Source: Poriferisphaera corsica (GTDB taxonomy: Bacteria > Planctomycetota > Phycisphaerae > Phycisphaerales > Phycisphaeraceae). Taken from it: DNA of 64,000 bases. A model generated the notes under the pieces. The model was not told the origin of the DNA. It worked only from the letters and a program-made list of their open reading frames with translations, and did not search any database. Positions 7,681-39,364 of this stretch are shown piece after piece; the stretch's first letter is position 1; every line of letters starts with the position of its first letter. Location: positions 2,092,175 through 2,156,174 of the forward strand of contig NZ_CP036425.1 in the NCBI RefSeq assembly GCF_007747445.1. Reading direction: 5' to 3'. The translations under genes were made by a program, and so were the position numbers.

Positions 7681-9000
7681 TTATGGTGTGTTACTCGCTT
7701 CGCGTTCATTAGCAGTAATCGTGACCTCGTTCATGCTGGGGTCTTCCGATTGAGTATCACTGATACGAACCACCTCGCCATCAATTAAAACTGAATTACC
7801 TTCAGTGAGAAGTGTAACATTGTCCATTGGAAGATCGATGATTAAATAGTTTGCGTTATCTATATAATCTGGCTCAATTTCTAGACGTTTTGCTCTGACT
7901 GTGCCTGCACCGGTATCCGCTTCTGCGACGAATGCAATAATTCTACTTCCCTTCTTGCGGACTGCATCTGCGGGGATCGCATACGCTTTAACTGTTCGGA
8001 TTTTTACATCTGCTCTGCCGATCATTCCCGGTCTGAGTAAGCCATCGCTATTGTCAATATCTACATCAATATTAAATAAACCTGAAATATTGTTTGCCAT
8101 TGGTGGGATCGTTGCGACCACACCTTTACGTTTGATCAAACCATCGTCATTGCCTTTCCGGCGTGTATCACTTCTCAACGCTTCAATGTAAACATCAACT
8201 TCTTGGCCTAACTTGAGTAAGCCAAGTTTGCGCTCAACTACACCGATATCAAGCTTAACTTTGCTGATATCAACTAAAGTGACAATATTGTCTTGCGGCG
8301 AAACCATTTGACCTAATTCTGCGGGGATGGTCGCAATCGTGCCATCAATTGGCGCTAAAAGAGTCGTGTCTTGAAGATTAACTTTGGCCACTTCATATGC
8401 AGCAGTTGCGGACTCTTTCATAGCAACGGCTTCAAGTTTTTTCGCCTTCGCATTTTCGACCGCAACTTGAGCTAATGTTTCCGCTAATTGAGATCGTTCC
8501 ATTTCACGTTGAGTTGCAGCATTACTTTTTTTAAGTTTGACGACACGTTTGCTTTCAATAATGGCATCGGCAAGTCGAGCTTCAGCGTCCGCGATTGCGG
8601 CATCACATGCGCTCAGTGCTGCCTTTGATTGTTCTATCGAAGCTTTGGCGGCGGCTAACTGAGCGATGTAACGATCCTGTTCAAGTTTCGCAAGCGTCTC
8701 GCCTTTGGAAATGGTATCGCCTCTGCTGAGTAAGTTTTGCTGAAATTGATCGCCAATCTGCGCGATTCGGCCGGAGATTTGAAATCCCATTTCAACTTGT
8801 GAATCTGGCTCAATCAGACCGAAGAATGATTCAGTCATGACATATGGGCTTTTCTTAATTTGGAGACTTTTGACTGGAACTGCATTTTTAATTTGAGGGG
8901 GTTGTAAATCATATGAATTACCAGATCGCAGGTATCCAATCAAAACGATGATTGCGATGAATGCACCAAATACTGAAAAAATCAAAAGTCTGGCTTTCAT
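7681..9000 (-). CDS. RND efflux adaptor (HlyD/MFP family membrane-fusion protein)
   Basis: Periplasmic adaptor joining the RND pump to an outer-membrane channel. The 439 residues begin with one membrane anchor (about residues 5-25). A split lipoyl/barrel-sandwich domain follows (QISGRIAQI… and TLLAPIDGTIATI) around a long alanine-rich coiled-coil hairpin (about residues 110-215), then beta-barrel and membrane-proximal domains. It is the first gene of the leftward unit, and the 185-bp divergent spacer from rlmN must hold its promoter. No TolC-like gene is nearby. Confidence 0.92.
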   Translation of the reverse strand: MKARLLIFSVFGAFIAIIVLIGYLRSGNSYDLQPPQIKNAVPVKSLQIKKSPYVMTESFFGLIEPDSQVEMGFQISGRIAQIGDQFQQNLLSRGDTISKGETLAKLEQDRYIAQLAAAKASIEQSKAALSACDAAIADAEARLADAIIESKRVVKLKKSNAATQREMERSQLAETLAQVAVENAKAKKLEAVAMKESATAAYEVAKVNLQDTTLLAPIDGTIATIPAELGQMVSPQDNIVTLVDISKVKLDIGVVERKLGLLKLGQEVDVYIEALRSDTRRKGNDDGLIKRKGVVATIPPMANNISGLFNIDVDIDNSDGLLRPGMIGRADVKIRTVKAYAIPADAVRKKGSRIIAFVAEADTGAGTVRAKRLEIEPDYIDNANYLIIDLPMDNVTLLTEGNSVLIDGEVVRISDTQSEDPSMNEVTITANEREASNTP

Positions 9001-9185
9001 GTTTGAAAACCCCGTTTATTTCTTGCAGACATACCCATGTAAGGATTGACTATATTTGCTGATAGGTTACCGATAATAGTGGCGAATATAACAATATTAT
9101 TATATCGACTTTTTTGAGATAGCTGACTTTGCATGTGTATCACCAATGCGTAGCTTTCCAAACTACGCTAGAATATCGGGCACTC

Positions 9186-10280
9186 ATGAGTCAGCAAATA
9201 CATTTTTTCGATCTAACGGATAAAGAATTAGCAGAGACTTTCCAGAGCTTTGGCCTGTCAAAGTTTCGTGCAAAGCAAATATTGGATTGGGTTTATGCGA
9301 AGGGTGTTATTGACCCAAATCAAATGACTAATTTATCTGTTAAGGATCGTGAACTTGTTAAGAATAAACTTGAATTCTTGCAAGGGGTGGCTGTTAAACA
9401 TCAAGTCGCGACTGATGGGACACAAAAATTACTGATCGATTGGGCGCTCTCGGGCAATTCCTTGAGTGTGCTGAATAATCAAGAAGGTGGCTCCGAATCG
9501 CAAACAGAATGCGTCATGATCCCAGCAGTGTCTGGAGTCGGATCACACAGAAAGACGGCATGTATTTCCAGCCAAGTGGGTTGTCCCGTTGGCTGTTCAT
9601 TTTGTGCCTCTGGTATTGGTGGACTTGACGCAAATCTGACTACTGGGCAAATTGTCCAGCAGGTTTGGCAATTGGCTCAGCTCGATCAGGTTGGCCGTAT
9701 AAGCAATGTTGTGTTCATGGGGATGGGTGAGCCTCTATCTAACTTTAATGCGGTTACAAAGGCGTTGCGGATTATTAATGCCCCGTGGGGCCTTGGGGTC
9801 AGCGCCCGAAAAATCACTGTAAGCACTGTTGGCTTGCCAGCCCAAATTAAGAGATTGGCTCAGTTTGATCTACCAATCACACTCGCGATCAGTTTGCATG
9901 CTCCCAATGATGAGATCCGAAAAGAGCTCATACCTTGGGCTGAGTATGTCACGATCGAGCAGCTCAAAGACGCTGCGAACACTTATTTCGAGCAATCAGG
10001 CCGTGAAGTTACGCTTGAGTATATTTTGATTGGTGGTGTGAACGATCAGCGTGAGCACGCCAAGGAATTATCTGTTTTAGCCCGCAGTATGCGATGTAAC
10101 ATTAACCTGATTCGCTATAACGAAGTGGATGGGATGCCATACCAGCGTCCATTAAATGATGATGTCTTACTGTTTCAAGCAATTCTACAGAAAGCTGGGC
10201 TTAACGTTCACATCAGGGCTAGCCGCGGTCGGGATATATCCGCAGCATGCGGGCAATTGCGGCACGAGCACAGCAAGTAA
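9186..10280 (+). CDS. rlmN: 23S rRNA (adenine-2503-C2)/tRNA methyltransferase, radical SAM
   Basis: Methylates A2503 of 23S rRNA and A37 of some tRNAs. The 364 residues contain the radical-SAM cluster CPVGCSFC (CX3CX2C), just after the methyl-carrier region ACISSQVG. GMGEPLSN (SAM binding) and the second catalytic cysteine in SAACGQL at the C-terminus are also present. I start at the ATG at 9186 (MSQQIHFFDL), which matches the usual N-terminus; an upstream in-frame ATG at 9129 would add 19 unlikely residues. No strong ribosome binding site is visible. Confidence 0.95.
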   Translation: MSQQIHFFDLTDKELAETFQSFGLSKFRAKQILDWVYAKGVIDPNQMTNLSVKDRELVKNKLEFLQGVAVKHQVATDGTQKLLIDWALSGNSLSVLNNQEGGSESQTECVMIPAVSGVGSHRKTACISSQVGCPVGCSFCASGIGGLDANLTTGQIVQQVWQLAQLDQVGRISNVVFMGMGEPLSNFNAVTKALRIINAPWGLGVSARKITVSTVGLPAQIKRLAQFDLPITLAISLHAPNDEIRKELIPWAEYVTIEQLKDAANTYFEQSGREVTLEYILIGGVNDQREHAKELSVLARSMRCNINLIRYNEVDGMPYQRPLNDDVLLFQAILQKAGLNVHIRASRGRDISAACGQLRHEHSK

Positions 10281-28609: not shown

Positions 28610-29554
28610 TTATTCGATCATATCTAGAAAATCAGATTCACTAACAATTTCAATTGAACCGCCTGCATCATTAAGCTGAGCGGCTTTTGACAATTTCCCC
28701 GTCGTTTTTCCCGATTCTTCGTAAGCTTCGTAAACTTCATCCCCAACCACGACAATATCAGTTTTCTTCGAGACAGATCCAATAACTCTACCACCCTGAA
28801 TTTCTACTATTTCCGTAGCTTCCGACCTGTTCAAAAACATCAATTCACCTGTAAATACAAATTTTTTACCATCAAATCGCCCATCAGGTGCAGCTACATC
28901 AACCGCATCGCCTTCACCAGTATCAAAGTCAATATGGCTCACTCCCAATTCGTTGGTTGAGATTTCAAGACATACCGCATTTGTGGAATTTTTCTGTGAC
29001 ATACCAAATTCTGCGAACTCTTTAATATGTCCTTCAAGCTGTTTCGGCCCTGCCAAACGGAATAGACGCATGGCTAACTCCGCGCAAGTGATCGCATCAG
29101 ACAGAGCGTCATGATGTTTTAGGTTTAAACCGAATACTTTTGCAAGTGTGCCTAATTTGTGGTTTCGCAAGCCCGGCAACAGTTTCTTTGCTAGGTTGCA
29201 CGTGCAGCAATATTTTCCTGACAAACAAGACAAGTCCCCGTTATAAATATTATTCTGCAAAACGCTTATATCGAATGCGGCATTATGCGCGACTACAAGT
29301 CCGTCAGCACAAATCTGATGCACCTTCGGCCAGATTTCCTCAAACGATGGAGCATCAGCCACGTCTTCAGCTGTAATGCCGTGTATACGAATAAACTCAG
29401 GTAGAAAATTCAAAGATGGGGGACGTATCAGCGAAGAGTATTTTTTAGCAATCTTTCCATTCTCTACGATAGCAATACCAACAGCGCAAGCACTGTTCCG
29501 ACCACGATTCGCTGTTTCGAAATCGATAGCTGCGAAGTTATTTATCATTGTCAT
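28610..29554 (-). CDS. DnaQ-family 3'-5' exonuclease fused to a BRCT domain
   Basis: 314 residues. The DEDDh exonuclease occupies about residues 1-165, with Exo I 'AAIDFETAN', Exo II 'VVAHNAAFDISVLQNN' and Exo III 'HHDALSDAITCAELA'. A BRCT domain follows at about 225-314 (FDGKKFVFTGEL… GGRVIGSVSKKTDIVVVG). The same combination is found in stand-alone epsilon-like proteins. It lies between the repressor and the late genes and may be a lysogenic accessory gene. Confidence 0.9.
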   Translation of the reverse strand: MTMINNFAAIDFETANRGRNSACAVGIAIVENGKIAKKYSSLIRPPSLNFLPEFIRIHGITAEDVADAPSFEEIWPKVHQICADGLVVAHNAAFDISVLQNNIYNGDLSCLSGKYCCTCNLAKKLLPGLRNHKLGTLAKVFGLNLKHHDALSDAITCAELAMRLFRLAGPKQLEGHIKEFAEFGMSQKNSTNAVCLEISTNELGVSHIDFDTGEGDAVDVAAPDGRFDGKKFVFTGELMFLNRSEATEIVEIQGGRVIGSVSKKTDIVVVGDEVYEAYEESGKTTGKLSKAAQLNDAGGSIEIVSESDFLDMIE

Positions 29555-29895
29555 TCAACCTGATTTATTGGCGTGTCATTTTAGTCAGTTAAGAAATGAT
29601 AATGGACTGCGTGAACTTGCGGAAGTGGTATATACAAGAATGACAACATTATGACATATCAGGCTAAACTATTCTTGCCTGTCGCAAATGATATGTTATA
29701 TTTGGTAAATGTTAGGGGTTCTGTTTGGGTCAGGAGGGCTTGTGTATTCGGCGGTGCTACAAGGACGGGGCACATTTCTTAAAACCAATATTACATAACA
29801 AAACAGCCACTTAATTCGGTTCTACGCTATTTCTGCGCTCATATTTTCGGAGGTGCATGATGAAGGTTGCCGTACGCGCTAAAACGGGCTTGGGG
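29555..29895. other. Gene-free spacer between exonuclease and repressor
   Basis: 341 bp. The only structure I see is a pair of perfect complements ACATATCA (29654-29661) and TGATATGT (29689-29696) with inner AGGC/GCCT arms, able to form a bulged hairpin. The promoter of the leftward exonuclease gene should be here; I could not choose a convincing -35/-10 pair. Confidence 0.5.
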
Positions 29896-30105
29896 TTATT
29901 TCTTTTTCAGCTTTCCAGCTTTGAGGGTTCTTCCAAATACATTCAAGAGGGATTCGAGGTTTTCAGAGCCGAGATCAGAGGTTCCATCAAAAAAGTTATA
30001 AAGCGTCTTTTTTGTAACTTTGCCCGCAGCCGCTACCTGCTCCATCGTCATAGACGAATCATTGCAGCATTTTCTGAGTGTTTTCCTGATTTCATCAATA
30101 GGCAT
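29896..30105 (-). CDS. Small XRE-type repressor candidate
   Basis: 69 residues from the ATG at 30105 (GGAG 8 bases upstream). The middle 'SMTMEQVAAAGKVTKKTLYNFFDG' is a helix-turn-helix of the Cro/CI type, followed by 'SENLESLLNVFG'. There is no C-terminal cleavage domain, so induction would not follow the lambda CI self-cleavage route. It is divergent from the rightward early genes, as expected for the lysogeny repressor. Confidence 0.75.
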   Translation of the reverse strand: MPIDEIRKTLRKCCNDSSMTMEQVAAAGKVTKKTLYNFFDGTSDLGSENLESLLNVFGRTLKAGKLKKK

Positions 30106-30123
30106 TTCATTCTCTCCAAAAAG

Positions 30124-30179
30124 TTGACGATTATATACTTGACTATCGACAGTATAATATATTACACTCAAGTGGACAA
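30124..30179. promoter_or_regulatory. Divergent promoter/operator of the immunity region
   Basis: On the minus strand TTGTCC (30174-30179) and TATACT (30151-30156) are 17 bp apart and would drive the repressor. On the plus strand TTGACT starts at 30139 but has no good partner at 17 bp. A near-palindrome ACTATCGACAGT (10 of 12) covers the overlap and could be the operator. Confidence 0.5.
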
Positions 30180-30186
30180 TAAAAAT

Positions 30187-30217
30187 CCCTCAAAGGTGTT
30201 GGTATCACCGATGAGGG
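30187..30217 (+). promoter_or_regulatory. Leader hairpin before the first early gene
   Basis: CCCTCA and TGAGGG enclose GGTG and CACC with a 7-nt loop: a two-part stem 38 bp upstream of the ATG at 30255. No T run follows it. Possible mRNA leader control or operator. Confidence 0.4.
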
Positions 30218-30254
30218 GACAGTCTCACACTCATCTTGGAAGGAGGATGTGAGC

Positions 30255-30668
30255 ATGCCTAACCCAATTATACATGATGAGGGCGGCGGGGGGCAGCAGG
30301 ATCACACTTCACTATTGCGTGGTTATTCGACCGCCTCGGTTGAAGAATACCGTGGTGTACGCATTCTGATCCCTGACGATTTTAGAACGGACTGTATGGA
30401 TAAAGGTGATACCGAAATCACCCTTACAATCAAACTGCCTAAATCGACCCTAAAACAAAGAAATCTCAGTGATACGCAAATCGCAATCCTTGATGCGGTC
30501 GAGAACAGCAAAAAGGGTGAGCTACCAGCCAAAGAAATCGCCCGCATATCTGGCTATTCGTACGGCAGTGTCAGAAACGAACTCACAAAAGAGGGTGTTT
30601 TACTGTCATATTCATATCTGACAAAGCACAAAGATGAAGATGGAACTGTAATGTTTACAGTGATTTAG
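30255..30668 (+). CDS. Winged-helix early regulator candidate
   Basis: 137 residues from the ATG with AAGGAGG about 8 bases upstream; a GTG at 30249 is too close to that site. The C-terminal half 'LSDTQIAILDAVENSKKGELPAKEIARISGYSYGSVRNEL' reads as a winged helix with a recognition helix near SYGSVRNEL. First rightward gene, divergent from the repressor: a Cro-like role is inferred. Confidence 0.65.
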   Translation: MPNPIIHDEGGGGQQDHTSLLRGYSTASVEEYRGVRILIPDDFRTDCMDKGDTEITLTIKLPKSTLKQRNLSDTQIAILDAVENSKKGELPAKEIARISGYSYGSVRNELTKEGVLLSYSYLTKHKDEDGTVMFTVI

Positions 30669-30711
30669 ACCACTGTCATATGATTTATGACAGTGCATAT
30701 GACAGTGGTCT
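30667..30711. repeat. 16-bp inverted repeat with three TGACAGTG copies
   Basis: Arms 30667-30682 and 30696-30711 are perfect complements (core CCACTGTCATATG) with a 13-nt loop. The octamer TGACAGTG occurs at 30688 and 30700 and inverted at 30671. It begins at the stop codon of the regulator gene. Candidate operator array or a factor-dependent attenuator; there is no T run. Confidence 0.6.
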
Positions 30712-31215
30712 CGAAATTTTAGATTACATTTACACCCATGAAATCACACGCCCCACAAAACAAGATCCTGAATGGCGAACGCTGCGGCTCACATTGGCGT
30801 GTGATTAGCTGCGGCGCCAACGCCACAAGCGGCGGGGACTCTCCCACCACTCTCCTCCCGTCTCCGTCGCTTTCTTTCAACAACACAGTACCGCCTCAGG
30901 TACATGCCAGCCTCGCCACCGATCGTATCGACGGCGGGGTATTTTGCCCCCGGAAGCCATCGCCGTTTATCAACATGGGCGGCGGTGGTTTTTACTTTGC
31001 AATTTCTCGGTCACTGATGCGGCCGCTTGTCGCCCAATGCCTAATCGTGTTGCGCGGCTTTCGTTCTCAGGTTGATCCGGCTTGTTGCCGGGCTTACCAC
31101 GGTTACATGATGGCGGCGTAGCCATCGACCAATACCTTCGCTGTCTGCGAAAGTCGGCACGAAGGTTTACACCAAACGTTAGATCAAATGAAGCGCAATG
31201 CGTGAAGGTTATCTA
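30712..31215 (+). other. 504-bp region of doubtful coding content
   Basis: A plus-strand frame 30738-31121 could give 127 residues (starting MKSHAPQNKILNGERCG) but has no ribosome binding site and an unusual composition (Pro, Ser, Gly, Cys). An inverted repeat ACCTTCG/CGAAGGT lies at about 31131-31164. It may hold an untranslated RNA or control region between the regulator and replication genes. I do not recognise it. Confidence 0.3.
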
Positions 31216-31548
31216 ATGCAATCAACAGTCAAACAACCAATCTCACGCCAAGACTTGAAGAATGACATCGTTGTGTCAGTTGCTAGAGAAATGCGTTTGC
31301 GTCCACATCTTTTCGCGCTTAGCAACGCAAATATTCAGCTACTGGCAAAGGGGCGGCAGGCGATCGCCATCATCATGCGGCGCCGCATCACCGGCATCAC
31401 CCAAACCGAAATAGGCGAGTGCTTGGGCGGCTACAAACAGCGGCGCGTGAGCAAATGGATTGAGGATGGGAAGGATAACCCGGAAGTGATGGAGATTGTG
31501 GAAAACGCAGCGAATTTTAAAAACGCTGATTTTGGAACAGGGATGTAA
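31216..31548 (+). CDS. Stand-alone DnaA domain IV-like DNA-binding protein (first copy)
   Basis: 110 residues from the ATG at 31216 (GAAGG 7 bases upstream). It follows the layout of the DnaA box-binding domain: 'IVVSVAREMRLRPHLFAL', then 'GRQAIAIIMRRRITGITQTEIGECLGG', then 'YKQRRVSKWI' where DnaA has the RDHTTV signature. The ATPase domain of DnaA is absent. Its stop overlaps the next start (TAATG). Confidence 0.7.
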   Translation: MQSTVKQPISRQDLKNDIVVSVAREMRLRPHLFALSNANIQLLAKGRQAIAIIMRRRITGITQTEIGECLGGYKQRRVSKWIEDGKDNPEVMEIVENAANFKNADFGTGM

Positions 31549-32396
31549 TGAGCTGGATACAGGTAAAACTTAAACCAGATAGCCCCAAAGTGAAGCTTGT
31601 TGCTGCATTGGTTGGGGAAGATAGATGGACTGTTTACGGCAAGTTAATTGGGTGGTTTCATTATGTCGATGCGAATTTTTGCAGCGAGGAAACCATTCTT
31701 GACCGTGACCTGTTCAACTTACAGCTTGAATCACCAGTGGATGCAAAGGCTGATTATTTCACCGCTATGTCAGATCCAAGAGTGAACTGGATACGCGAGA
31801 GCGAGGATGGGCAGATATGTGTTGTTGATTATGAAGGCAATTTCAGCACATCAGCAAAGCGCAGGCTGAAGGATTCAAAGCGTAAAGCAGATCAATCCGC
31901 AAAGGTTCGGAAGAATTTCCGCAAAGGTGCGGAAAAAGTTCCGCAGTCGTGCGGAAAAAACGCGGAGCTACATAAGAGAAGAGAAGAGAAGAATAAACAT
32001 CATGATGATTGTGATTCAAAATTGCTGCTTTCGGAGATGGGTATCGACAAGCAAGCATTCAACGTCATCGACTTCTCGAAGGTTGATACTGATCGAATCA
32101 ACAGGCTATGGGCCACGAAGGGCAAGCCAAAGAAACCGCAAGGTTATCTCGTCAACGCGCTGAAGGACGACCACGTACCTGAGAGACAACCACATCCCAA
32201 GGAAATTTTAGAACTTTGTAAAAGCGGTTATGTGACAGCTATCGCATTGCCTACGGAAACCATTGCCTGTCGAGATCGGAAGATTCTGTACAACGAGCAT
32301 GGCATTACGGTTGATGGGGTAGGTGTACCCAAAGAAACGTTCGGCGAAGCAAAATTTGTTTATCGAAGTGACTCTGAGGAGGTGCTAAATGCGTAG
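31548..32396 (+). CDS. Phage replication initiator/replisome organiser-like protein
   Basis: 282 residues. The N-terminus (MSWIQVKLKPDSPKVKLVAALV…YGKLIGWFHYVDANF) resembles the winged-helix front of phage O-like initiators. A Lys/Arg-rich linker (about residues 105-150) carries the iterons at DNA level. The C-terminal part begins near 'LSEMGIDKQAF' and I do not recognise it. Flanked by overlapping DnaA domain IV-like genes on both sides, it is the centre of the replication module. Confidence 0.65.
   Translation: MSWIQVKLKPDSPKVKLVAALVGEDRWTVYGKLIGWFHYVDANFCSEETILDRDLFNLQLESPVDAKADYFTAMSDPRVNWIRESEDGQICVVDYEGNFSTSAKRRLKDSKRKADQSAKVRKNFRKGAEKVPQSCGKNAELHKRREEKNKHHDDCDSKLLLSEMGIDKQAFNVIDFSKVDTDRINRLWATKGKPKKPQGYLVNALKDDHVPERQPHPKEILELCKSGYVTAIALPTETIACRDRKILYNEHGITVDGVGVPKETFGEAKFVYRSDSEEVLNA
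31895..31956. repeat. Three 22-bp-period iterons, probable phage replication origin
   Basis: Inverted-repeat units start at 31895, 31917 and 31939, exactly 22 bp (two helical turns) apart. The units are ATCCGCA-AAGG-TTCGGAA, TTCCGCA-AAGG-TGCGGAA and TTCCGCA-GTCG-TGCGGAA. The period is not a codon multiple, so protein repetition does not explain it. A purine-rich GAGAA run and AT-rich sequence follow at 31975-32000. Confidence 0.75.
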
Positions 32397-32742
32397 ACGA
32401 CTTCTGACTTCTGGTGATGTGTTAGACGTGGCTGGCAGGTTTAGCCGGTACAGCGTTGAGGAAATCATTAGCAATGATCGTCGTTTAGAGCCACGGAGGA
32501 TACGTCACGCTTGTGCGCACATCATGAGGGAGCGTTGTGGGATGACTTTGCAAGAGATTGCGACCTCACTAGGTCGTAAGAAACACAATGCCGCACTCAA
32601 CATGATACGCCGAGCAACAGAAGATTTTGATGTTCAATGTTATGTCAGGGAATTCGAGTCAGAACTCAGAAATATTAACGCCGTCTGGTGGAGCCAGACA
32701 AAAGAAACACATCGGAGATGTGAAGATGAACACACTGTTTGA
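32389..32742 (+). CDS. Stand-alone DnaA domain IV-like DNA-binding protein (second copy)
   Basis: 117 residues. Clearer match to the DnaA C-terminal domain than the first copy: 'VLDVAGRFSRYSVEEIISNDR', 'RIRHACAHIMRERCGMTLQEIATSLG', 'RKKHNAALNMIRRA'. The central His and following Ala-Leu align with the HTTV part of DnaA. No ATPase. It overlaps the initiator gene by 8 bp and the next gene by 17 bp. Confidence 0.8.
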   Translation: MRRRLLTSGDVLDVAGRFSRYSVEEIISNDRRLEPRRIRHACAHIMRERCGMTLQEIATSLGRKKHNAALNMIRRATEDFDVQCYVREFESELRNINAVWWSQTKETHRRCEDEHTV

Positions 32743-33115
32743 CAACGTACCCGACGAGCTACAGGAAAAGCCGTCGATACTTGCCGCAACAACACGGCCG
32801 CCAGTAGCGAGGCAGAACCAGCGAGCAGGATTACGCAAGGCGAATAAAGAGCCATGCGTCCGCGCACACGTCGCCTCTGAGTTGCTGAAGGCGGGGCCGG
32901 TACGTGTTTTAGATGGAACGGTTGTAGGCGGCGCCACGATCCAAGAATTGCGGCTCCTCGTCACCGAACGGCGGGACAAAGAAACGAAGGAAACCACGAT
33001 CACGCAACCGCTCAAAGATTTACGGGAGTCGGGACATGTGATTGATTCGGGGTATTCGCGGGTTGGTAATTCGGGCGTCATGAACACTGTGTGGGCGCAT
33101 CGAGCAGCAAAATAA
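32726..33115 (+). CDS. Phage early protein with possible winged helix, unknown
   Basis: 129 residues from the ATG at 32726; upstream in-frame codons run inside the DnaA-like gene and are not needed. A basic segment (ARQNQRAGLRKANK) precedes a helical part 'ATIQELRLLVTERRDKETKET' and 'QPLKDLRESGHVIDSGY', typical of a small winged helix. Function unknown. Confidence 0.65.
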   Translation: MNTLFDNVPDELQEKPSILAATTRPPVARQNQRAGLRKANKEPCVRAHVASELLKAGPVRVLDGTVVGGATIQELRLLVTERRDKETKETTITQPLKDLRESGHVIDSGYSRVGNSGVMNTVWAHRAAK

Positions 33116-33148
33116 TAGACGAATTATCGAAGATAACGGTACAGATAA

Positions 33149-33883
33149 ATGACACATGAAGAATTAGTAGAAGCTTGCCGCCGTATCGCGCTCGATCATG
33201 GGTGCTTGGAGCCGATCTTAGACCCCAGACGCCGCAACGGAAACGGCGAACACCCCGACGCGTTCGCAGTTTACGAAAAATATCATGAGTGCGCGTATCA
33301 AGTCGATAGTGGCCCATCGATCACAACCTACCCCGGTATGTCGCTGTGCCTTGAGTGCAAAGCAACGCTTGCAGATTTGCGTAAAGATCGCGAAAAGCCG
33401 TGGCGAAGTCAGGAGTATGCGGTCGGTGACGTGCGGTTGTATGTCGCGGAAGAGGGCGGTGAGATTGAATCACGCCACATCAAAGATGAGTGGGGGTGGG
33501 GTTTGGTGTTAGTACGTCCCGATGGATCGCATTATCTAGCGGTGCATCCGAGATTGATGAAGCATGCACGACAGATAGAAATGCAGATTCTCGGCTTGTG
33601 GGCGCATCAGACCATGATTGCCGGGAGAGAAGCTAACGCCGGCACATCCAGTCATAAGAGCGAACGCAGACGAAACACACAGCAGCAAAGTGAACGCGAG
33701 GCGATCTTGCATCACTTGCAGGAATACGGCGATGCAACAGCCAAAGAACTAAACAAGGCTATTGGGTTTGGGATCAAATCGACGCGATACAAAGCGATAC
33801 ATGACCACCTCGAAAAGCTTGGAATTAAGCCAGTACCGAACACATCTCCAACGCTTTACGCATACGGAGATCAGAAGACATGA
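33149..33883 (+). CDS. Phage early protein with Cys motif and C-terminal winged helix
   Basis: 244 residues. The first half has a Cys pair in 'SLCLECKATLADL' and possibly a Cys at residue 19. The last 70 residues, after a Gln-rich linker, read as a winged helix (SEREAILHHLQEYGDATAKELNKAIG). DNA-binding is inferred; no family recognised. Confidence 0.65.
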   Translation: MTHEELVEACRRIALDHGCLEPILDPRRRNGNGEHPDAFAVYEKYHECAYQVDSGPSITTYPGMSLCLECKATLADLRKDREKPWRSQEYAVGDVRLYVAEEGGEIESRHIKDEWGWGLVLVRPDGSHYLAVHPRLMKHARQIEMQILGLWAHQTMIAGREANAGTSSHKSERRRNTQQQSEREAILHHLQEYGDATAKELNKAIGFGIKSTRYKAIHDHLEKLGIKPVPNTSPTLYAYGDQKT

Positions 33884-34362
33884 AACACCCCGACGCAAAG
33901 CCGGATTGTGAGAGGTGCAAAGGTAAAGGCATCCTCGACGATGGTGAGACGTCCCCCGTTTATATCGATTGCGAATGCACGAAACGACATAAGAAAGGTG
34001 ATGAAATGAGTGAGATAGAGGACAAGAAAACCTACGTATTTTACGGATGCAGTGATGACACTTTCGGAGAGTACAACATTACGAATGATGACTACGACAA
34101 TTGCGCTAGCAATGAGCCGATCCGATGGAGATTGAAAGATTCGAACGGTTATGGTTACTTCATTGATGGGCAGTACAGCGAGAAGCAATCAGGTTGTTGG
34201 TCAATACGAGTAGAGCCTATCGAGGAAAACAGGAATCCTAACTGGCCGATGAGGTTTGCTAATCCATCGGAATATCGCGCCACGCCATATTCGATGGTGT
34301 TGGTCGTAGATGCTCCGTGTGATGCAACTTTGGTGTCCTTAGAACGTGAGGGAGGTGAGTGA
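33880..34362 (+). CDS. Small protein with N-terminal CxxC zinc motif
   Basis: 160 residues. 'CERCKGKGILDD…DCECTKRHKKGD' at the start resembles one repeat of the DnaJ zinc domain. The rest, from about residue 43 (MSEIEDKKTYVFYGCSDD), is acidic and could be a separate domain or an internal start. Overlaps the preceding stop by 4 bp. Confidence 0.6.
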   Translation: MKHPDAKPDCERCKGKGILDDGETSPVYIDCECTKRHKKGDEMSEIEDKKTYVFYGCSDDTFGEYNITNDDYDNCASNEPIRWRLKDSNGYGYFIDGQYSEKQSGCWSIRVEPIEENRNPNWPMRFANPSEYRATPYSMVLVVDAPCDATLVSLEREGGE

Positions 34363-37864: not shown

Positions 37865-37912
37865 GGATGGCGGTAGCGATATTATGTGTTTGAGCAGCAA
37901 AGGAGCGAAGCA

Positions 37913-39364
37913 ATGGCAAGTGTGTTTAAGCGCGGCAAGGTGTATCACGCGAAATACCAAAACCACCGGGGGCAATGGGTTCGCAAATCAACCAAAACCA
38001 GCGATAAACGTGCCGCACAGATGATTGCCGCGGACTACGAGAAAGAGGCGATGCTGAGGTTTCGGGGACTCATCGACGTCGAGGACGAGCGAATCCAACA
38101 GGCCGCCAACTCTCCAATCGGCGGTTACATTGAGCAGTATAAAGAACACCTCAAAGCGAAATCCGCGAAAAGTCATTACTCTGCACAATTTACAAGGATT
38201 GACGAAATTATCAGGGTAGCTGATATTCGGCGATGGGTAGAGGTTGCCCCAGCAAAGATTGAGCGTGCATTGGCTACGATCAAAGATTCACGCAAAATAT
38301 CGATTTCAACTCGTAATAAATATCTCACAGCGTTTGTGAGCTTTGGGTCGTGGATGGTGAAGCAGGGGAACACCAAAACCAACCCACTACTTAATGTGTT
38401 GCGGCTCACAGAAGACGAAACAGAACACAGACGGGCGTTGACGGTTGAGGAGGCTATGAGGGTAGTAGAAGCGGCCGAATCGGGCTTAGATGCGTTCAAA
38501 CTCGATCGATCAGGGCGTGAGAGATGGCGACTTTCCGGCGCCGAGCGTGCTTTGCTTTACATTTTCACAATCGAAACCGGGTTAAGACGTTCGGCGATTG
38601 AGCGGTTGCGCGTAAAACACTTCACGCTTGACGATGAGCCGATTGTTACGATCGAGAAGCGGGCAAACACAAAATCACGCAAAACACTCAAGATCCCAAT
38701 CAGGCAAGCAACTGCTGAGCAATTCAAGGCGATTTTTGCAAGCAAACTCCCAAACTCGCCAGCGTTCTCAATGCCTGCACGCTGGGAAACCGCCGACATG
38801 CTCAGGGAGGATATGACTGCGGCTAGATCGAAATGGATTCGGGAGGGGGAGACGCCGAAGGAACGCGCCAAACGAGCGGAGAGCGATTTTCTCGCTACCG
38901 AGGATGTGGAGGGACGACGCGTAGACTTTCACGCACTTCGCACTACGTGCGGGACGTGGCTTGATGACGCCGGCGTCTCGACATCTACAGCGAAACACAT
39001 CACCGGCCACGCCAGCGAGCAAATTCTCGAACGCCATTATCACCGACACAATACGAGACGAATTCGTAAGGCGGTTGAAAAATTACCAGAACTAACACTC
39101 AAGGCAACCGGAACAGATGGCGATTCGTCTAATCAGCGCATTGTACCAAATATGTACCAAAATCATCGCCGGGGACTGCCACAAACTGCCGATTACTGCC
39201 ACGGCGAAAATGATGTGATTTCAGAGTCGGCGCACAAAAAAACCCCTGAAATTACAGGGGTTTACAGTTCATTGCCGCATTCTGCCGGAGAATACAACCA
39301 ACGAGAGCGACGGGGATCGAACCCGCAACCTCTGGATCGACAGTCCAGTGCTCTAACCAATTGA
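37913..39364 (+). CDS. int: Tyrosine integrase
   Basis: 483 residues in the prophage from the ATG at 37913 (AAAGGAG about 8 bases upstream). Visible catalytic residues: Arg in 'ETGLRRSAIERLR', Lys region 'RANTKSRKTLKI', 'DFHALRTTCGTW' (HxxR), His in 'HITGHASE' and nucleophile Tyr in 'ERHYHRHNTRR'. An N-terminal beta-sheet arm-binding part (MASVFKRGKVYHAKYQN…) and a core-binding helix bundle precede. The last about 80 residues run through the arm site, the tRNA terminator and attR and end inside tRNA-Asp. On the circle the frame instead continues to 10775. Confidence 0.93.
   Translation: MASVFKRGKVYHAKYQNHRGQWVRKSTKTSDKRAAQMIAADYEKEAMLRFRGLIDVEDERIQQAANSPIGGYIEQYKEHLKAKSAKSHYSAQFTRIDEIIRVADIRRWVEVAPAKIERALATIKDSRKISISTRNKYLTAFVSFGSWMVKQGNTKTNPLLNVLRLTEDETEHRRALTVEEAMRVVEAAESGLDAFKLDRSGRERWRLSGAERALLYIFTIETGLRRSAIERLRVKHFTLDDEPIVTIEKRANTKSRKTLKIPIRQATAEQFKAIFASKLPNSPAFSMPARWETADMLREDMTAARSKWIREGETPKERAKRAESDFLATEDVEGRRVDFHALRTTCGTWLDDAGVSTSTAKHITGHASEQILERHYHRHNTRRIRKAVEKLPELTLKATGTDGDSSNQRIVPNMYQNHRRGLPQTADYCHGENDVISESAHKKTPEITGVYSSLPHSAGEYNQRERRGSNPQPLDRQSSALTN
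39141..39161 (+). repeat. Candidate integrase arm-type site, right
   Basis: TTGTACCA…TGTACCAAA, 19 of 21 positions shared with 10602-10622 and in the same orientation, 139 bp from the attR core. It lies inside the 3' part of int. Confidence 0.55.
39236..39263 (-). terminator. Phage-supplied terminator for tRNA-Asp
   Basis: 9-bp perfect stem AAACCCCTG/CAGGGGTTT with a 6-nt loop, followed on the minus strand by a T run. It lies 39 bp beyond the tRNA 3' end, so it ends the tRNA transcript in the lysogen. The same DNA is coding sequence of int on the other strand. Confidence 0.8.
39300..39351. repeat. attR core, 52-bp direct repeat
   Basis: Perfect match to 10510-10561. This copy completes the functional tRNA-Asp gene. 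Confidence 0.95.

Follow-up and report, generated by a model that had tools for sequence, protein, structure and literature searches.

The early region of a prophage in the chromosome of Poriferisphaera corsica raises the question of whether DNA-binding fragments of the bacterial initiator DnaA have been reused as phage proteins, and in which role. The window (the whole 64,000-nucleotide stretch of DNA analysed, C1:2092175-2156174 within a 4.29-Mb single-contig genome) encodes a terminase (Pfam TerL nuclease, E 9e-29), a portal protein (E 5e-43), a cytosine methylase and a tyrosine integrase (37886-39364, forward strand) whose end overlaps a tRNA-Asp gene and marks a prophage end; together these features indicate that the window carries a prophage. 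Opposite an HTH_3 repressor-like gene (Pfam match; 29896-30171, reverse strand), the rightward early operon comprises three forward-strand genes: ORF1 (31198-31548), encoding a 116-residue helix-turn-helix protein, ORF2 (31548-32396), encoding a 282-residue phage replication initiator, and ORF3 (32389-32742), encoding a protein of 117 residues. The original prediction, which placed the start of ORF1 at 31216, a later ATG in the frame opening at 31198, assigned ORF1 and ORF3 as two DnaA domain IV-like proteins lacking the ATPase and flanking a phage initiator, with all three genes overlapping. The overlaps are confirmed: ORF1 and ORF2 share base 31548, ORF2 and ORF3 share the eight bases 32389-32396, and ORF3 overlaps by 17 bases the next gene of the operon (32726-33115, forward strand), which encodes 129 residues without a significant family match in Pfam, PHROGs or NCBIfam. 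Such overlapping ends are the pattern expected of a translationally coupled operon. Likewise, Pfam analysis reports no ATPase match for either flanking protein, neither of which therefore carries the AAA+ domain of full-length DnaA. Right where the 30249-30668 gene ends, two 16-bp arms separated by 13 nt form an inverted repeat without mismatches (30667-30711), a candidate operator or terminator.

Judged from its sequence, ORF3 resembles domain IV of DnaA and consists of this domain on its own, devoid of the ATPase and in a divergent form. Pfam analysis of ORF3 reports a hit with Bac_DnaA_C (PF08299; residues 14-74, E 2.7e-6, 27.7 bits, below the curated cut-off of 31.5), and hits are also returned with the NCBIfam DnaA models (E 3.3e-6 and 5.5e-5) and with the DnaA chains 1l8q/2hcb of the PDB (E 0.0015). 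A class-specific DnaA domain IV profile, made from 24 domain IV sequences of the collected loci and one E. coli sequence, ranks ORF3 first among 877 frames (the stop-to-stop frames of the window and of two related loci), with 37.6 bits and an E value of 8e-11, over an alignment of 82 residues without gaps. Structure prediction adds no fold support to this assignment: the single-sequence AlphaFold models, of doubtful use, reach a pLDDT of 73.6 in one of five cases and 39-47 in the other four, Foldseek returns no DnaA chain among the best 50 of the 75 matches listed, and VIA-align returns none among the 50 matches listed, its best hits being unrelated helical chains (Z 5.9). Absence of a chain from these lists does not argue against the fold.

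The recognition helix of ORF3, GRKKHNAAL, is altered. The columns of its alignment were given the DnaA residue numbers 399, 407, 433, 434, 435 and 436. Residues 407, 433, 434 and 436 of DnaA contact the DnaA box. Compared with 36 sequences (the 25 profile sequences and 11 stand-alone phage proteins), ORF3 keeps the residues at positions R399, R407 and H434, each invariant in the whole set. At position 433 it carries a lysine where 34 of the 36 have an aspartate, at position 436 an alanine where all have a threonine, and at position 435 an asparagine where all have threonine, serine or alanine, so that a K-H-N-A motif stands in place of the mostly D-H-T/S/A-T motif. As both D433 and T436 are replaced, ORF3 is unlikely to read a DnaA box; it probably retains the domain IV fold and probably reads a different site. 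The original prediction had suggested an altered specificity, pointing to the YKQRRV motif of the first copy, ORF1. That motif is indeed present and the suggestion is plausible, but it is ORF3 that shows the clearest changes. Contact roles for residues 399, 400, 435, 442 and 443 are given in the available part of PMC9638019.

ORF2, in between, is an initiator as predicted: its N-terminal part matches phrog_9474 (E 1.3e-5) and phrog_2509 (E 4.6e-5), both replication initiation families. The gene contains three iterons of the core TTCCGCAnnnnTGCGGAA (31895-31956, forward strand) spaced by 22 bp, the first copy having two mismatches. The two exact copies are the sole exact matches to the core in the 4.29-Mb genome, while the reversed control returns 0; the repeats named in the original prediction are real. 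On their 3' side, an AT-rich stretch (31957-32036, 37.5% GC) may serve as unwinding element; within it, at 31972 and 15 bases past the last iteron, starts the 60-mer of ORF2 that is poorest in GC (30% GC). Iterons followed by an AT-rich stretch would correspond to the layout of a phage origin within an initiator gene. In phage lambda, the initiator O is encoded by a gene that contains the iteron-bearing origin, and ORF2 exhibits both features of this type, the initiator family match and the iterons inside the gene. By this analogy the natural binder of the iterons would be ORF2 itself, and not the DnaA-like proteins to which the original prediction had tentatively given that role. DnaA boxes (TTWTNCACA) are not enriched in the window (7 versus 5.9 expected). 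No helicase loader was recognised by Pfam, PHROGs or NCBIfam among the scanned prophage proteins, a scan that covered part of the genes. Further downstream, the product of a small phage gene (37278-37640) hits the J-domain family DnaJ of Pfam with 26.6 bits (E 6e-6), marginally short of the cut-off of 27.8. Host DnaJ is used in lambda-type initiation, and a link of this gene with such initiation is possible.

Searches of 301 genomes of the order give some insight into the architecture of ORF2. Its C-terminal part occurs again elsewhere in this genome, at a second locus of prophage-like character (37% identity over residues 208-277, E 4.7e-9), residues 150-259 are weakly matched in a genome of the same family, G276 (E 0.0034), and the N-terminal part is matched in G339 (E 1.8e-6) by a protein that hits the same two PHROGs as ORF2, phrog_9474 and phrog_2509. 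Initiators with the common C-terminal part are thus encoded at 31548-32396, L037 1459-2367 and L038 1495-2369, two of these loci belonging to this genome and the third to a genome of the same family, and their N-terminal matches differ (phrog_9474, phrog_1408 and phrog_270). This combination, at the level of sequence, suggests that initiators such as ORF2 carry swappable origin-binding ends on a common C-terminal part. In the second prophage-like locus (C1 about 2734600-2736200; L040 about 8600-10200), the initiator gene spans more than one frame, appears by eye to contain an AT-rich stretch and direct repeats of the AATCCAA type, and is followed by a gene for 117 residues and then by an SSB-like gene. 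The 117-residue protein (L038) seemed DnaA-like by eye, but it was rejected as such: it has no Pfam or PHROG match and is absent from the frames found with the class profile up to E 50.

Stand-alone DnaA domain IV proteins had been thought undescribed in phages, which does not hold. Of 50,697 phage records, 88 are hit by the class DnaA domain IV query, some of them through full DnaA genes or because the record is probably bacterial DNA. All 12 annotated records examined, picked from 60 of these 88, encode a stand-alone DnaA domain IV protein of 107-191 residues, and the PHROG family phrog_30669, annotated as replication initiation protein, consists of such phage proteins. Neighbours were identified by PHROG searches in seven of the 12 loci and by annotation in the remaining ones. 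An initiator, primosomal or loader gene directly adjoins the lone DnaA domain IV gene in four loci (L044, L045, L048 and L052) and is within five genes of it in seven (adding L047, L051 and L043); the gene directly 5' of it is annotated as SSB in L050 and L053. In L049 (2842-4100), which may be bacterial DNA, the lone gene is followed by a gene for 268 residues and then by a gene annotated as sulfur acceptor protein, an order resembling the gafA neighbourhood described in the available part of PMC9638019. The protein gp46 of Polaribacter phage P12002L, a member of phrog_30669, is like ORF3 a lone DnaA domain IV of 100-200 residues in a tailed phage. However, phrog_30669 is absent from the PHROG matches of ORF3 (limit E 10, with filters that drop most matches above about 0.1), and the aspartate and threonine of the recognition helix, present in each of the 11 phage proteins compared, are missing from ORF3.

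The IMG/VR scan yielded at least 600 stretches; confirmation succeeded for 227, and 80 loci were retained. Among the matches listed, a DnaA domain IV frame is present in 79 of the 80 loci, in 66 of them with at most 239 residues, and its neighbours are varied, including methyltransferases, resolvases and primosomal proteins. Methyltransferase, primosomal and RusA-like families each account for at most 4 of 61 downstream neighbours of the short genes listed, and primosomal or initiator families for at most 2 of 59 upstream ones. A second DnaA domain IV frame on the same strand was found within the retrieved flanks of none of the 79 loci among the matches listed, so that the pairing proposed in the original prediction is not seen among them. 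Close relatives of ORF1, ORF2 or ORF3 were not confirmed in IMG/VR, and none of ORF1 or ORF3 was found in the genome contigs collection by a scan that detects close relatives. Against the phage records the three proteins return nothing significant (two places at E 8-10 for ORF3, a best E of 0.04 for ORF2, none for ORF1), the DNA of 29000-34000 has no match among phage sequences, and ORF1 finds only itself among 198 genomes of the class. These searches bring up no close homologue of either flanking protein and thus give no sign that the arrangement is conserved.

DnaA domain IV has also been reused in characterised proteins of phage-derived elements. According to the accessible parts of the respective papers, GafA has an N-terminal DnaA-like DNA-binding domain (PMC9638019), and GafY, a homologue of DnaA domain IV, corresponds to the protein published earlier under the name HdaB, per the reference cited there (PMC9632790). 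Both share with ORF3 a DnaA domain IV-like DNA-binding domain without AAA+. In TnpA-REP relatives, the part of PMC6006769 available describes a DnaA domain IV-like domain that is similarly reused in a mobile-element protein, but there this Bac_DnaA_C-like domain is C-terminal and fused to an HuH nuclease, whereas ORF3 is a separate protein. Among the matches listed in a search of the open-licence literature, no functional studies of phage-encoded or prophage DnaA fragments were found besides those on GafA and GafY (HdaB), and the portions available of The DnaA Tale (PMC5835720) and PMC6813254 hold nothing on phage DnaA fragments.

What, then, would ORF3 do beside the initiator? The reading that we tentatively favour, at close to but short of an even chance, is that the locus is a temperate-phage replication module, similar in outline to cII-O-P of lambda, and that ORF3 is a DNA-binding replication accessory with a site of its own. 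As in lambda, a small regulator-like gene is followed by an initiator gene that contains iterons and an AT-rich stretch, but the DnaA domain IV protein ORF3 is found in place of P. In such a module, the N-terminal part of ORF2 would bind the iterons in its own gene and open the adjoining AT-rich stretch, as its family matches and the layout suggest. ORF3 would bind a phage-specific site and assist the initiator, for example by shaping the origin or by helping to place the host helicase, and ORF1, in the position of lambda cII, may be either a regulator of the phage or another DnaA domain IV protein, more decayed than ORF3. Arguing for ORF3 as an accessory are the four domain searches that identify it, the overlapping genes, the initiator PHROGs of ORF2, the unique iterons with their low-GC stretch, the absence of DnaA-box enrichment, the changes in the recognition helix, and the neighbourhoods seen in 4 and 7 of the 12 phage records. 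Arguing against it are the minority of IMG/VR loci, among the matches listed, in which such a gene directly adjoins an initiator, the ORF3 model without fold support, the lack of close homologues of ORF1 and ORF3, and the gene 3' of the initiator in the second locus, which has no DnaA match. GafY and the N-terminal domain of GafA, the best-studied lone DnaA domain IV proteins among those encountered, also count against it, acting in transcription as far as the accessible portions of their papers describe.

These latter proteins keep a second reading alive, the strongest competitor of the first, which we consider unlikely though well worth retaining, namely that ORF3 is a transcription regulator akin to GafY that binds phage promoters, recruits RNA polymerase and adjoins the initiator by mere position. 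The available parts of PMC9638019, PMC11150451 and PMC9632790 report that GafY, which binds RpoD (PMC11150451), acts with it on GTA promoters, and that a small DnaA-like gene is 5' of gafA in most Hyphomicrobiales homologues; the varied neighbours of the lone genes listed from IMG/VR also agree with such a role. However, ORF3 overlaps an initiator gene and not a regulator gene, and the three general libraries recognise no gafZ-like partner at 32726-33115. A third reading, that ORF3 targets the host by competing for or blocking sites of the chromosomal origin and so stops host initiation, is in our judgement very improbable: a DNA-binding domain without ATPase is laid out like a dominant-negative fragment of DnaA, but the positions of D433 and T436 are changed, and the two DnaA proteins of the host, with 24% and 23% identity, are no closer to ORF3 than other DnaA proteins of the class are. 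The host dnaA is located at C1:1-1416, and a second full-length DnaA-like protein of 519 residues, with the recognition helix GRKTHSTV, is encoded at C1 about 230376-231935 (L002 262-1821).

The nature of ORF1 is a question separate from the role of ORF3. Whether it is a Cro/CII/YdaS-type regulator and not a DnaA fragment is evenly poised. Pfam reports no DnaA match for ORF1 up to E 10 (the filters of the program drop most weak matches) and no family above its cut-off. The class DnaA domain IV profile places it second of the 877 frames (12.5 bits, E 0.005), a score reached by none of 20,000 shuffles. Among 1,453 frames, ORF1 scores 9.5 bits with a wider DnaA domain IV profile (E 0.069) and 7.9 bits with a third one (E 0.24), and in both searches a non-DnaA frame slightly outscores ORF1. 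With a fixed DnaA domain IV set, in a test for which 25 lone DnaA domain IV frames and ORF1 and ORF3 themselves were set aside, its 11.8 bits are equalled by 1 of 1,000 shuffles and by 2 of about 1,500 other frames. Used as sole query, ORF1 finds matches at E ≤0.05 in 19 of 392 genomes of the phylum, its own included. Ten of the 18 non-self matches, from seven genera, are DnaA domain IV by profile (at least 43.5 bits), and nine of these ten frames also contain a Walker A motif; two of the 18 loci, L135 and L148, gave no match on local re-search. DnaA proteins resemble one another, hence these ten matches are not independent and the DnaA reading is not taken as proven.

The regulator reading draws on evidence of about equal weight. 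ORF1 residues 8-112 match phrog_4, annotated as transcriptional repressor (E 2.8e-4), residues 58-107 score 8-11 bits with home-made repressor-type profiles, and Pfam returns a weak YdaS match (E 0.085). The best non-self match in the 392 genomes looks by its motif like an XRE-type regulator, and ORF1 is directly 5' of the initiator gene, as is cII before O in lambda. The match with phrog_34198 (E 0.13) is too weak to count; the lone DnaA domain IV protein of phage L051 hits the same family at 0.0039. The single-sequence model of ORF1 is poor (pLDDT 44.6). Foldseek ranks DnaA domain IV 1j1v at the top of its 21 matches, with a non-significant E of 2.4 and a second DnaA at 6.1. VIA-align reports the DnaA chains 8btg (Z 2.8) and 3pvp (Z 2.1) under unrelated chains at 4.1 and 3.2, and 1j1v is not among the matches listed. 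From these sequence scores the two readings appear about tied, with DnaA domain IV a little under even.

It follows that of the two flanking DnaA domain IV proteins initially proposed, ORF3 is established and ORF1 is not. That the initiator is flanked on either side by a re-tooled DnaA domain IV protein, each with its own change of the recognition helix, the two forming a pair of origin- or promoter-specific binders replacing a helicase loader and a cII-type regulator, is accordingly graded as improbable. ORF3 is a real but divergent case of a known and little-studied kind of protein, and the flanking pair is unproven. Lone DnaA domain IV proteins are scattered among phages, where they are annotated as DnaA or as replication initiation proteins. 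This locus offers a compact test case for them, combining an initiator with an origin-like element, an overlapping DnaA domain IV gene with changed contact residues, and a host with two DnaA proteins.
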